In this document: positions 44,011 through 48,368 of the stretch, piece by piece
How the letters are laid out: the number at the start of each line of letters is the position of its first letter
Numbering within the stretch: the first letter of the stretch is position 1
Assembly (NCBI GenBank): GCA_002287215.1
Contig: LMVO01000004.1
Location: 1-55,263, forward strand
DNA length: 55,263 bases
From: Methanocorpusculum parvum
GTDB taxonomy: Archaea > Halobacteriota > Methanomicrobia > Methanomicrobiales > Methanocorpusculaceae
Direction of reading: 5' to 3'
Made by a program: the position numbers and the translations under genes
The notes under the pieces: generated by a model
Seen by the model: only the letters and a program-made list of their open reading frames with translations
The model's database searches: none
What the model was told of the DNA's origin: nothing

Positions 44011-44934
44011 ATGCGGTATTATCTGCGAAAGAATGTTCTGATCGTCAGAGGAGATTTCCGGGCGGCGAGCAGCGGTGTGGACGGCGGCCTTGCGGATGTC
44101 AGGTCGATTCTGAACATCTCGATTCCCTCGCAGTTTTCGGATGACGCCTCAGCGCACATCGCCCGCGTGTCGATGGAGAACGGATTTTTACAACCCTATT
44201 TCGGGCTTCTGACTGCTCTGCCGATCACGAATCTCTGCATTGCCAGATACGACTATGTCACGGTTTTTGTCACGGCCGCCGTTTCAGACCGGAACCGGAC
44301 GATCAATATCATTGTGACCTGTGAGAGGCCGCTGACCGATGCCGCTCTGCTTGGGGCAATGATGACGGCGACCGAAGCAAAAATGCAGGTGATCACGGCG
44401 AGAAAAGTTCCCGGCAGCGCTCTTTCTACGGACGCAGTTGTCGTTGCCTGTGAAAAGTCCGACGGTCCTGCCGAGGCGTTCGCGGGACCCCTGACCGGGA
44501 CCGGGATGCGGATCTCGAAAGCCGTTTCCCATGCCCTGACGGAGGCGCTTGTCCGGTTCGATAATTATCTTCTGTCCACCTGGGGGGTGACCCGCGGATG
44601 GTCCCGGGGACATCCGGCGATCGTTTCGCGGCGGCGTCCCTCATTTTTTATTTACAGCCGGTACGGGGGGGATCACTGGAACGAGTGGATCCCGGAGGAC
44701 TGCCCGTATTATCCGTGTCATAATTATTCTGATCAGCAGTGCAGTTTCTGCTACTGCCCGCTCTATCCCTGTATGGACACTGAGCTTGGTCAGCTGATCG
44801 ATACGCCCAACGGGAAGATCTGGAGCTGCATGGACTGCCGTCTGGTCCACGAACCTGCGGTGGCGAATCATCTTCTGCGAAATCCCGAAGCAGATGTTCT
44901 TGAACTGAAGTCAGTAAAAAAGAAAAATATTTAG
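44011..44934 (+). CDS. cbiZ: Adenosylcobinamide amidohydrolase CbiZ fused to cysteine-rich domain
   Basis: The N-terminal 210 residues match CbiZ, which removes the aminopropanol arm of salvaged adenosylcobinamide to give adenosylcobyric acid (motifs SGVDGGLADVRSILN, ALSTDAVVVACEK, GTGMRISKAVSHALTEAL). Residues 231-285 are a cysteine-rich domain (CPYYPCHNYSDQQCSFCYC, then PLYPCMD and IWSCMDCRLVHEP) able to bind zinc or an iron-sulfur cluster. The fusion may help bind or recognise the corrinoid. Stop overlaps the convergent DUF1858 gene by four bases. Confidence 0.88.
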   Translation: MRYYLRKNVLIVRGDFRAASSGVDGGLADVRSILNISIPSQFSDDASAHIARVSMENGFLQPYFGLLTALPITNLCIARYDYVTVFVTAAVSDRNRTINIIVTCERPLTDAALLGAMMTATEAKMQVITARKVPGSALSTDAVVVACEKSDGPAEAFAGPLTGTGMRISKAVSHALTEALVRFDNYLLSTWGVTRGWSRGHPAIVSRRRPSFFIYSRYGGDHWNEWIPEDCPYYPCHNYSDQQCSFCYCPLYPCMDTELGQLIDTPNGKIWSCMDCRLVHEPAVANHLLRNPEADVLELKSVKKKNI

Positions 44935-45116
44935 AGTCCGAGCTTTTTTGCAAGCTCTTCTAAGGGGATGCCGTGGACCATTGCGGCCTCGCGGATGGTC
45001 TCGTTGTTTGCGATCGCGCAGCCGAGGCAGCCCATACCGAAGCTCTGAAGGGTTGCTGCGGACTCAGGTTTCTCGCGGAGAAGGTCGGCGATAGTTGAAT
45101 CAAGTGTGATTGCCAT
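44931..45116 (-). CDS. DUF1858 small protein
   Basis: The 61-aa protein matches DUF1858, a small helical domain with a CxxC motif (FGMGCLGCAIANNETIREAA). It is found alone or fused to hydrogenase or disulfide-related proteins and is thought to bind a metal or act in redox. Its stop overlaps the convergent cbiZ stop by four bases. Function unknown. Confidence 0.85.
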   Translation of the reverse strand: MAITLDSTIADLLREKPESAATLQSFGMGCLGCAIANNETIREAAMVHGIPLEELAKKLGL

Positions 45117-45173
45117 GGTACTATGTTGGCGGGATTACTACTTGATATTTGCGAAGAAGATACTCAAAAAAGA

Positions 45174-46397
45174 TTAATGAGATGATGCATGGGATGATGC
45201 TTTCTTCTCGAAAGTGATGACCTCTTTCCATGCAAGATCGACCCATTCGCCGTTTTCGAGCCGCATCACATCGTATGAAGGATAGGCATCCCCTTTCTCG
45301 TCGAAGACGATCGTTCCGGTGAGTCCGACATGCCGGATATTGTCAAGACCCTCTCTGATCCCGTCCGCCGTGTATCCGCTGTTTTCTATTGCCTGGGACA
45401 CGACGATCATCGTATCATGTCCGTAGATCGAGTCGCGGACCATCAGGGCTTCATGGAATTTTTCTACATAATGCTCCTCGTAGGAGGGGTCCGAGATCCT
45501 TCTCGACTGGGAAAACCCGATGAGACCTTCGGAGTATGCACCGACTTCCAGCGGGACCTGCCGGTTGGTCACCATGTCAGAGCCGAACCATGCCGGGTGA
45601 AGCCCTTCCGCCTCCGCGGCTTTCATGATCTCCACACACTGACTCGGGTTGACGATCAGAAGAACAGACTGCGGCTGGGTTTTCTTCATCTCTGCGATGA
45701 TCGCGCCCGCGTTCAGCGTGTCGGAGTCAGGGACCCCTATGCAGGATACGATATGCATATCCGGATATGAGGTCTCGACTTCGTTGAGGAATGCATATCT
45801 CAGGCTTTTTCCGTAACTGGTGTTAAGATAGATCATCATAACATTTTGCGTATCGTTACGTCCGCCGATGATCTTTGCCATGCCTGCCCCGAGGTAGATG
45901 TCGGAAGAGACCGTTCTGTAGACATAATTTCCGTATGCCGAGAGGCCCGCGGATGTTGCCGAAGGAGAGATCAGGACGATCTCATATGACTCCGCATACG
46001 GGGCAAGTGCGAGCGTCACGGTACTCGTCAATGCGCCGATGACGACCGGGATGCCTTGTTCTTTGATCTCTTTGAACTGTTCTTTTGCCAGAGTGACGTT
46101 TCCTTTGTTGTCATAATACTCTGCCCTGACCGGGACGCCCCGGATGCCTCCCGCATTATTGATATCCTCGATCGCGAGTTCGATCCCCCGCATATACTCG
46201 ACGCCGAACTCCGCCATCTCTCCTTCGAAAGGCAGGGAAACCGCGACGACCACTTCATTTTCCGGAAAATCGCTGGTGATGATCGTTCCAAACGGGTGGA
46301 ATGCGATGATAAACATGAGGATCGTCAGAACGATGATGCCAATAGTGATGTACTTCGCTGCTTTTGTCTGCGGCGGTTTTTCATGATGACCCGACAT
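45174..46397 (-). CDS. Membrane-anchored LivK-like periplasmic-binding protein
   Basis: The 407-aa protein has a single N-terminal helix (YITIGIIVLTILMFIIAFHP) and then a type I periplasmic-binding fold of the branched-chain amino-acid (LivK) family: VVAVSLPFEGEMAEFGVEYM, INNAGGIRGVPVRAEYYDN, VVIGALTSTVTLALAPYAES and LISPSATSAGLSAYGNYVYR. The helix is likely an uncleaved anchor. No LivH/M/F/G permease or ATPase lies nearby. It directly abuts the Nramp-5TMR gene (TAA followed by ATG), so the two are made together, perhaps as ligand sensor and membrane partner. Confidence 0.9.
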   Translation of the reverse strand: MSGHHEKPPQTKAAKYITIGIIVLTILMFIIAFHPFGTIITSDFPENEVVVAVSLPFEGEMAEFGVEYMRGIELAIEDINNAGGIRGVPVRAEYYDNKGNVTLAKEQFKEIKEQGIPVVIGALTSTVTLALAPYAESYEIVLISPSATSAGLSAYGNYVYRTVSSDIYLGAGMAKIIGGRNDTQNVMMIYLNTSYGKSLRYAFLNEVETSYPDMHIVSCIGVPDSDTLNAGAIIAEMKKTQPQSVLLIVNPSQCVEIMKAAEAEGLHPAWFGSDMVTNRQVPLEVGAYSEGLIGFSQSRRISDPSYEEHYVEKFHEALMVRDSIYGHDTMIVVSQAIENSGYTADGIREGLDNIRHVGLTGTIVFDEKGDAYPSYDVMRLENGEWVDLAWKEVITFEKKASSHASSH

Positions 46398-48368
46398 TTA
46401 CTTCTCCTCCTTTTCTGGGTCTTTTGATTCGTTTTCGGTCCGGGTCTTTTTTCTTCCGAGGAGGCTCTCTGTTCCTGCGGCAAAGACGATGTGTTCTTTG
46501 GCGAAGTAGGCAAACAGCGCTACACCCAGCGTGTTGACGATGGTGATCGGCAAAAACGTGCTTGCGACGATCGCGACGATCTCTTCGACTGTCTGAGTGC
46601 CGAAGATGATCCCGCACCCAGGAACGATGATGAGCAGATGTATCCACTCGATGACAACGGTCACCAAAACCGCCTTGAAGATGGTGACTCTTCCCTGCCA
46701 CCACCGGACGGCAAATCCGGCGATAAGGCCGGCCGCGAGAATGGCAAGCGAGCATCCGATCGCCGTCGGCCCGCCCTGGGCAAGACGGTAGACGCATCCG
46801 ATGAGACCGGCGAGGCCGCCGATCAGCGGGCCGCCCAAAAGGCCGGCGACGATCGGACCGATCGCGCTGAAGTTGAAGATGAGACCGTTGACATCGATCC
46901 CCCGAAACACGCCGTAGATGGAAAGCCCGCCGCCCAATGCGACGGTCCACAGTTTATCGGTGAAGTTCGCGGCTCCGCGGACGAGTTTTTTGAACATCTC
47001 CGTCTTTGTGAAGACGAAGAGCACGACCACGATCACGAGCATGCGTTCGATCAACGGGATGCCGTTTTGCAGGAACGAGGATTCTATCAGCAATGCCACA
47101 TAGATCGAAAGTCCGCTGCCGATCCCCATGACGGCCATCCAGAGCCGGGACCCTTTTGCATACTTCGGCAGTCTGCTGTCGAGGTAGATGACGATGAATC
47201 CGAAGATACCAAACAGGATCGCCGAAAACGCCGCGATCTGACGGATGACCGTCATTGGATCGGCGATCACCATTGCGAGAATGACCACGCCGGTGAAAAC
47301 GAGGAGTGTTATCTGATACAGATTGTGTTCACTGGGCAGAGCTTTGCCTTTGTCTTCGCCCAGATGGCGGACCACTTTGGCGAGAGCTCTGGCGCGTGCA
47401 TCCATACCAACAACGACGGCGCCAAAGAAAATCACCGCGACGAACATCAGAAACACAGACGGCCCGTAGGGGATCGAACTGAAGATATAGAGGATCTGGG
47501 TGATCAGTGTATCAAGGGTGATCTTCGCTCCGTGCGGCATGAAGGATACGGCGTATCCCGCATAGCCGAGAAACATGAAACCGATCGTGACGACTGCGAC
47601 AAAGAAGAACCCTGTCATGACGTCGAAATTCACACTGCGGATATATTTTCTGAAAAAAGATTCGTTCTGGAGGGTGCACTCCTGTTTGTCTTCAGTGTGT
47701 ATCTTTGTTTTCTGGGAAAGCCAGACCGAGTAGAGCATGAGGTTCAGTCCGGATCCGACGACTCCCAGGATCGCGAGGATCGCCATCTCGGAACCGGCAG
47801 GGATGGAGGGGACCAGTCCGTCGAGAATGAGGTTGAAGGAGAGCGGGAACTGGGTCAGGGCGATGAGGATGACGCCGGCAAGTATGCTTATCAGGACTGC
47901 CATGACCGGTTCGAGGATCTCGTACGAACTGGTTCTGATGACGGCGAGTGTCAACACCAGCAGAAATACTGCTATCAGAAAGACCGAGTAGATGCCGGGA
48001 AGCAGATAGTCCAGAAATGTCGCGGAGAATACGAGCATCGCGCCGATCGCAAACATTTCCATGAGGTAGGAGATGATGATCAGATACGAGCCCCAGTTTT
48101 TCGGTCCGGGCAGACGGTTCAGGGCGTCGAAGATCGTCTGGTTGGTCGCGAGGGTATAACGGGCGATCCCGTTGGTGAATGCGTATTTGAAGATGAGGGT
48201 GATGATGACGACCCAGATCAGGGCAGGACCGTAGTGAGCTCCGATTTCTATCGCTTCAGTAACTCCGGCTTCGCCTGCCGCGGTGATCGCGAGCAGAAGA
48301 CCTGGTCCGAAGAATACAAAGTTATTTTGAAACCATTTTCGCAGGCGGGATATGAGCGGTTCTTTCAT
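46398..48368 (-). CDS. Degenerate Nramp-like transporter fused to LytS-type 5TM receptor domain
   Basis: The 656-aa membrane protein has an N-terminal Nramp-like part of about 11 helices (first helix FFGPGLLLAITAAGEAGVTE) and a C-terminal domain of about 150 residues (roughly 465-625). That domain reads NFSAIGPIVAGLLGGPLIGG and LAGLIGCVYRLAQGGPTAIG, and matches the 5TM receptor domain of LytS-YhcK histidine kinases. The metal-binding DPGN of helix 1 is replaced by AGEAG and the MPH of helix 6 by NLMLYSVW, so canonical Mn/Fe transport is doubtful. It is followed without gap by the LivK-like protein. The combined architecture is one I do not know as described. Confidence 0.85.
   Translation of the reverse strand: MKEPLISRLRKWFQNNFVFFGPGLLLAITAAGEAGVTEAIEIGAHYGPALIWVVIITLIFKYAFTNGIARYTLATNQTIFDALNRLPGPKNWGSYLIIISYLMEMFAIGAMLVFSATFLDYLLPGIYSVFLIAVFLLVLTLAVIRTSSYEILEPVMAVLISILAGVILIALTQFPLSFNLILDGLVPSIPAGSEMAILAILGVVGSGLNLMLYSVWLSQKTKIHTEDKQECTLQNESFFRKYIRSVNFDVMTGFFFVAVVTIGFMFLGYAGYAVSFMPHGAKITLDTLITQILYIFSSIPYGPSVFLMFVAVIFFGAVVVGMDARARALAKVVRHLGEDKGKALPSEHNLYQITLLVFTGVVILAMVIADPMTVIRQIAAFSAILFGIFGFIVIYLDSRLPKYAKGSRLWMAVMGIGSGLSIYVALLIESSFLQNGIPLIERMLVIVVVLFVFTKTEMFKKLVRGAANFTDKLWTVALGGGLSIYGVFRGIDVNGLIFNFSAIGPIVAGLLGGPLIGGLAGLIGCVYRLAQGGPTAIGCSLAILAAGLIAGFAVRWWQGRVTIFKAVLVTVVIEWIHLLIIVPGCGIIFGTQTVEEIVAIVASTFLPITIVNTLGVALFAYFAKEHIVFAAGTESLLGRKKTRTENESKDPEKEEK

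Follow-up and report, generated by a model that had tools for sequence, protein, structure and literature searches.

A 55,263-nucleotide stretch of Methanocorpusculum parvum DNA (contig LMVO01000004.1, assembly GCA_002287215.1), here called the window, was analysed around two adjacent minus-strand genes. The first encodes an Nramp-related carrier fused to a LytS-type 5TMR receptor domain, and the second encodes a LivK-like substrate-binding protein (SBP). The assembly holding the window is archaeal and 1.7 Mb in size, and its close homologues are named as Methanocorpusculum. The gene pair was tentatively read, at a little short of an even chance, as an SBP-dependent LeuT-fold importer of an amino-acid-like solute in which the SBP docks on the Nramp-related carrier. 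This reading draws on the pairing of the two genes, the failure to find LivH/LivM-type permeases in the genus, the loss of the metal motif from the carrier, the amino-acid-type pocket motif that the SBP retains and a linkage signature confined to the Nramp part. The SBP, predicted to be anchored in the membrane, would bind an amino-acid-like solute on the cell exterior. The loaded SBP would then dock on the outer loops of the carrier and deliver the solute. The carrier, in which small and acidic residues stand in for the metal motif, would move the solute inward by a LeuT-fold cycle. The LytS-type domain may dimerise or gate the carrier and, in some relatives, perhaps signal to a separate kinase as well.

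Both genes proposed in a first-pass annotation of the window were found as open reading frames (ORFs) at the positions in Table 1, and both domains of the fusion were matched (PF01566 and PF07694). Loci are given below as L-numbers, genomes as G-numbers and families as f1-f22, and g2 is a genus label. The gene pair is conserved in relatives, the fusion and SBP being found together in several genera. With each start taken mechanically as that of the longest ORF, the spacing between the two genes lay between -49 and +3 nt in 31 of 33 measured pairs and was exactly a 4-nt overlap in 15 of the 33. Two pairs were widely spaced (L038 and L086) and one gene is broken in each. At L039, from a different family, the SBP lies upstream of the fusion.

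The SBP-linked label was placed on a tree of 63 rows, 36 of them labelled. It required one change, in 100% of 200 bootstrap trees, and has a single origin on the tree. Fusions shorter than 580 aa were left out of the tree and of the tallies; L103 (415 aa) entered the tree as a partial row. For L034 and L103, whose contigs end before any SBP gene, the SBP-linked label was assigned from sequence. Both SBP-linked-type and SBP-less fusion copies were present in G037, G049, G055, G079, and G111. In G055 the SBP-linked-type fusion is at a contig end and the SBP is on another contig.

Twenty-five genomes of Methanocorpusculum were compared, of which 12 are at least 90% complete. Both genes were found in 18 genomes, neither in five, the SBP only in two and the fusion only in none (Fisher p 0.0004, not corrected for relatedness). 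In the two SBP-only genomes the SBP matches begin at contig starts. In genus g2, of the same family, the SBP was found in 0 of 8 genomes. An SBP-less fusion sequence was found in g2 genomes G006, G012, G036, G060, G086, and G106 and a piece of one in G082; the fusion is split over two ORFs in G006 and G060. SBP-less fusions that appear split or shortened were seen in g2 and G003 at L055:4737-6657(-), L056:5023-6941(-), and L054:5048-6340(-). Across 392 genomes of the phylum, G438 holds the only full-length fusion outside the order among the matches listed, and no SBP was found in the 16 kb around it. A scan of genome contigs gave one relative only.

The SBP had been described as lacking permease genes, and in the genus this was borne out. 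None of the 25 Methanocorpusculum genomes gave a match to PF02653, to which LivH and LivM belong, while the positive control was detected in 12 of 14 known genomes. A LivFGHM partner elsewhere in the genome was rejected on this absence. No DctQM or TctAB subunits were found beside the SBP at the locus, where Nramp and 5TMR were the only domains matched in the membrane partner.

Sites specific to SBP linkage were computed on a topology taken from AlphaFold2 (AF2) helices and fixed beforehand. The topology fits the positive-inside rule, with Lys and Arg making up 33 of 158 residues inside and 2 of 105 outside. To be called linkage-specific, a site had to be conserved in 85% or more of 34 SBP-linked fusions and shared by no more than 30% of 14 SBP-less fusions; L057 and L058 were left out. 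Of 23 such sites 14 were in extracellular Nramp loops (39, 41, 42, 44, 45, 125, 174, 193, 275, 279, 280, 291, 293, and 294), nine in Nramp helices, none in cytoplasmic segments and none in the 5TMR. The loop enrichment gave p 1.8e-8 against the 80 of 656 residues that these loops comprise and p 3.5e-6 against the 436-residue Nramp part. When the sequences were thinned at 85% identity 12 of 21 sites were extracellular (p 5.9e-7 for the whole protein and 4.9e-5 for the Nramp part). As controls, SBP-less-specific sites at a 70% threshold fell in extracellular Nramp loops in 4 of 29 cases, splits inside the SBP-linked clade gave 6/51 and 1/39, and two SBP-less subclades gave 6/73 and 20/153. At least eight specific sites were available for 38 of 44 tree splits. 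The extracellular-loop fraction exceeded 0.30 only in the SBP-linked clade, at 0.61, and in a 32-row subset nested within it, at 0.71; the next-highest splits had 3/10 and 4/14 sites in extracellular loops. Since the linkage-specific sites lie mostly in the outer Nramp loops, they point to a partner that contacts the carrier from outside; this partner would be the SBP. This statistical result on a predicted topology points to docking of the SBP on the outer face. The first-pass annotation had proposed that the 5TMR domain reads the SBP. This was not favoured, given the lack of linkage-specific sites in the 5TMR and of an output domain in the fusions.

The SBP matched Peripla_BP_6 (E 4.5e-34), the one such match in the window's own genome. 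Its AF2 model had a pLDDT of 87 with a helix at residues 12-33. No Cys was present within the first 70 residues, and the N-terminus is predicted to be a membrane anchor. A lipobox-like SGC was found in the SBPs of L089-L091. The top fold matches were LivK-type amino-acid-binding proteins, the first being 4n0q with leucine (TMt 0.89). Among 35 SBP homologues the LivJ-type residues S79, T102, D121, and Y150 were kept in 34, 35, 34, and 34, respectively, and E226 was D or E in 34. We take these five residues to hold the amino and carboxyl groups of the ligand. The side-chain pocket positions 202, 227, and 276 are variable among the homologues. The pocket suggests that the solute is likely amino-acid-like, at the level of class. 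Other genomes of the order encode proteins of about 710 aa with Peripla_BP_6 fused to a C-terminal Peptidase_C13 domain (legumain/caspase-like), at L143:4180-6318(-), L145:185-2326(+), L146:2575-4701(+), and L147:1681-3819(-). A separate SBP gene stands beside this gene in L143 and L145 and, by layout, in L149 and L150. A Peripla_BP_6-Bmp (PnrA-like) fusion and a tandem double Peripla_BP_6 protein were seen at L153:1642-3870(-) and L141:2295-4580(-).

The Nramp profile PF01566 matched fusion residues 37-265 (E 1.7e-15, 57.4 bits, cut-off 29.8), and the NCBIfam profile Nramp_1 matched residues 21-397 (100.3 bits, cut-off 50). The window carrier has the Nramp fold. The matches listed in a fold search with the fusion were Nramp and other LeuT-fold entries, including metal transporters. 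The proposed loss of metal ligands was borne out, as fusion residues 32-35, reading G-E-A-G, lie opposite the DPGN of E. coli MntH in alignments. GESG or GEAG stands at the DPGN position in all 34 SBP-linked fusions and in 81 of 82 rows of the alignment termed A2, and GExG is found there in 48 of 48 fusions (34 SBP-linked and 14 other). The position of the DPGN Asp is described as universally conserved in SLC11 (PMC8806188). It is Gly in 48/48 fusions and 82/82 A2 rows; by alignment tally the Asp is kept in 0/34 SBP-linked and 0/14 other fusions. In transmembrane helix 6 (TM6) GSGLN takes the place of the MPH region by profile alignment, while MAFFT alignment with E. coli MntH gives another register. 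G205 and S206 of TM6 are invariant in the A2 alignment. The DxxG-TxxA/T signature of Nramp-related Mg transporters (NRMT), as given in PMC8806188, is absent, the first position being Gly in all tallied fusions. TM1 E33 and TM3 E104 are conserved acids by alignment tally. An equivalence of E104 to DraNramp E134 is not claimed as two alignments disagree.

It is unlikely that the pair is an Nramp-related divalent-cation importer in which the SBP captures a metal complex or regulates. The replaced DPGN and MPH motifs and the missing NRMT DxxG argue against such a function, as do the amino-acid-type residues of the SBP pocket and the amino-acid-binding proteins at the top of its fold matches. In its favour are the fold match to metal transporters, the NCBIfam name (Nramp metal transporter) and the pair of conserved acids, E33 and E104, which could hold a cation. 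In part of f2 a convergent ABC-3 permease (by profile, L037) with ATPase and ZnuA-like ORFs (by eye) lies downstream, which is also consistent with a metal substrate. YcsG, a homologue of PxpT, is reported to import Mn2+ (PMC10448178); metal transport may thus persist in Nramp relatives that lack DPGN.

The 5TM-5TMR_LYT profile PF07694 matched fusion residues 457-624 (E 1.5e-36, 126 bits, cut-off 24.6), in agreement with the first assignment of the C-terminal helices. In alignment with E. coli BtsS and YpdA the receptor is complete, including helix H0 and its polar pair. The pair is E in 101 and R in 79 of 116 fusions, a tally that includes near-copies of the window protein. The pyruvate site of BtsS comprises R72, R99, C110, and S113 (PMC10653868). 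N70, R72, R99, and C110 of BtsS are together kept in at least 76 of the 116 fusions (from the 12 commonest patterns), and the S113 position is Ala in 93. The window protein reads N, S, R, and C at N70, R72, R99, and C110, the NXR motif being broken (N-F-S). The ligand of the window receptor, if any, may therefore differ from that of the pyruvate receptor BtsS. No kinase or other output domain was found in the window protein or in five further fusions scanned, and none was present in the precomputed domain lists of 120 homologous proteins. Tandem 5TMR domains occur in other Nramp-related proteins, with two copies in L046, L049, L057, and L058 and three in the 1126-aa protein of L140 (L140:6328-9708(-); L046:5069-7606(+); L049:4412-7003(-)). 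A 5TMR also occurs as a separate protein of some 257 aa, at L064:4873-5646(+) and in L065, L066, and L072 (263 aa in L072). It is the second 5TMR of the window's own genome, and no output domain was found in L064.

Kinase genes were found beside some relatives of the fusion. Five SBP-less fusions (L040, L041, L042, L044, and L045) each have a co-directional Response_reg-HisKA_2-HATPase gene as their immediate upstream neighbour, these kinase genes lying at L040:3980-5080(+), L041:3680-4990(+), L042:7102-8391(-), L044:7072-8169(-), and L045:4071-5156(+). The soluble receiver-histidine kinase and the SBP-less fusion are possibly a carrier-kinase pair of their own. A divergent kinase-cluster ORF faces seven SBP-linked fusions, all from one subclade (L034, L035, L038, L095, L099, L100, and L103). 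It was profiled as PAS-HATPase in L095 and L099, and the five others fall in the same ORF cluster. From these adjacent genes, at least some fusion relatives may signal through a separate kinase. In the Methanocorpusculum loci, no ORF of the kinase cluster was found up to two genes away from the fusion.

The kinase genes and the complete receptor domain, with its H0 Glu and retained BtsS residues, are what would be expected of a transceptor or receptor. In such a system the SBP would load the Nramp-like domain with little or no transport, the LytS-type domain would act as a second sensor and a separate soluble kinase would provide the output. This corresponds to the idea of the first-pass annotation, with the contact moved to the Nramp part. 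Transporter-derived receptors exist, as in yeast Ssy1 (PMC12958826). This explanation is considered doubtful: the Methanocorpusculum loci lack a nearby kinase ORF, the fusions scanned or listed lack an output domain, the 5TMR has no linkage-specific site and the window protein has Ser at R72. The importer was kept first because of the lack of linkage-specific sites in the 5TMR, weighed against the kinase-gene neighbours. The earlier interpretation of a sensor-transporter thus stood in part. The pair is conserved, the SBP is an orphan, the metal motif is lost and a receptor is fused to the carrier; the part in which the 5TMR reads the SBP was not favoured.

Several points weigh against the importer. 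To the conserved acids, the report on YcsG and the two groups of kinase genes can be added the support of the SBP-linked clade, whose branch has a bootstrap value of only 68% (support 68/98) and which carries a long-branch warning, L039 included. The distance correlation between SBP and carrier was 0.92 and reflects mostly shared ancestry. L082, L038, and L097 were left out of this correlation, and L082 was also left out of the full-length alignment. No SBP lies beside 17 of the related fusions placed on the tree, and the SBP is therefore not essential to the Nramp-5TMR architecture. Such SBP-less relatives would suit two functions that share only a transcript, namely an SBP-independent carrier and a sensor SBP. 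That arrangement is very improbable in view of the joint presence and absence of the two genes, their conserved overlap and the linkage-specific extracellular signature.

Features of the locus are collected in Table 1. The SBP ATG lies directly 3' of the fusion TAA with AGGAGG just upstream, within the end of the fusion gene. This arrangement suggests that the SBP start is placed for translation coupled to that of the fusion gene. The SBP is closely followed, on its own strand, by a small ORF of about 61 aa (window 44934-45119(-)) that resembles DUF1858 by eye. No RNA families or tRNAs were found in the window. No neighbour besides the SBP recurs throughout the locus maps, and thus no wider operon was found. 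ORF clusters c21 and c22 occur near the fusion in close Methanocorpusculum relatives and in one locus each of f6 and f2. A ROK-kinase-like gene lies upstream in close relatives (by eye), a Bmp protein is divergent from the fusion in part of f1 (by profile, L101), and a deoxyribosyltransferase is near some SBP-less fusion copies (by profile, L056).

Table 1. Features of the gene pair in the window, with positions, strand and basis.
Feature	Position	Strand	Basis
Nramp-related/5TMR fusion gene, 656 aa	46398..48368	(-)	ORF; PF01566 and PF07694; AF2 pLDDT 82, pTM 0.75
Nramp-related carrier domain, residues 20-435, 11 putative transmembrane helices	47064..48311	(-)	
TM1 site G32-E33-A34-G35 replacing canonical metal-binding DPGN	48264..48275	(-)	Tallies and alignments
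TM6 site G205-S206-G207-L208-N209 replacing canonical MPH region	47742..47756	(-)	Profile alignment, Bacteroides fragilis Nramp
LytS-type receptor domain, residues 434-625: H0 with E-R pair and six-helix 5TMR	46494..47069	(-)	PF07694; H0 alignment with BtsS/YpdA
LivK-like binding protein (SBP), 407 aa, predicted N-terminal membrane anchor at residues 12-33	45174..46397	(-)	ORF; Peripla_BP_6; AF2; fold match
Junction: AGGAGG ribosome-site-like stretch, TAA stop, SBP ATG	46395..46411	(-)	Sequence reading

The first-pass annotation knew of no described system of this composition. This does not apply to the fusion, as Nramp-5TMR was reported as an architecture in 2024 (Commun Biol, PMC11109136). 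The fusions of that paper have the same domain order with a C-terminal 5TMR and are said to be prevalent in archaea. The architecture is named there; its main text nowhere uses the terms 'substrate-binding protein' or 'solute-binding', and no metal-site analysis was seen in the part of the paper available. For the pairing the claim stood, as no report of an Nramp-5TMR fusion paired with an SBP was found among mainly openly accessible papers, covered by titles and the starts of abstracts. New here are the SBP pairing with its single origin, the permease absence in the genus, the GE[S/A]G motif in SBP-linked fusions and the loop signature.

The pair was compared to known systems. TRAP and TTT transporters are analogous in combining a binding protein with a secondary carrier, whereas the membrane partner of the pair matches Nramp and 5TMR only and its SBP is LivK-like. 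LivFGHM branched-chain amino acid ABC importers use a LivK/LivJ-type SBP with the same core pocket residues, but their PF02653 permease family is the one absent from the genus. BtsS and YpdA pyruvate receptors share H0 and the six-helix 5TMR with the window protein, which keeps R99 and C110; in contrast, the window protein has no kinase, carries its 5TMR at the carrier C-terminus and has Ser for R72. A precedent for the proposed importer is PxpT, which is assigned to the NRAMP family (TC 2.A.55) and without which growth on 5-oxoproline fails, although its authors leave room for metal transport (PMC13274462). PxpT and YcsG of 5-oxoproline operons resemble the proposed carrier as Nramp relatives linked to an amino-acid derivative. 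They differ in that no SBP or 5TMR is mentioned for them in the text available, and Mn2+ import is also claimed for YcsG.

Three SBP-dependent transporter families, ABC, TRAP, and TTT, were counted in a 2018 review (PMC5812351). That the pair represents a fourth such class, made up of an Nramp-derived LeuT-fold carrier whose metal site has given way to one for an organic solute, an anchored type I SBP that docks on the outer loops of the carrier and a built-in S-component-like receptor for gating or reporting, is possible but on balance not probable. If true, a LeuT-fold carrier fed by an SBP would stand as a fourth SBP-dependent family beside these three, and, the fold being very widespread among carriers, it would put to the test how alternating access can be driven by SBP docking. 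It would also inform the question, raised by PxpT versus YcsG, of what Nramp relatives lacking DPGN carry, metals or organic solutes. The name 'Nramp family divalent metal transporter' would then be misleading for these archaeal proteins.

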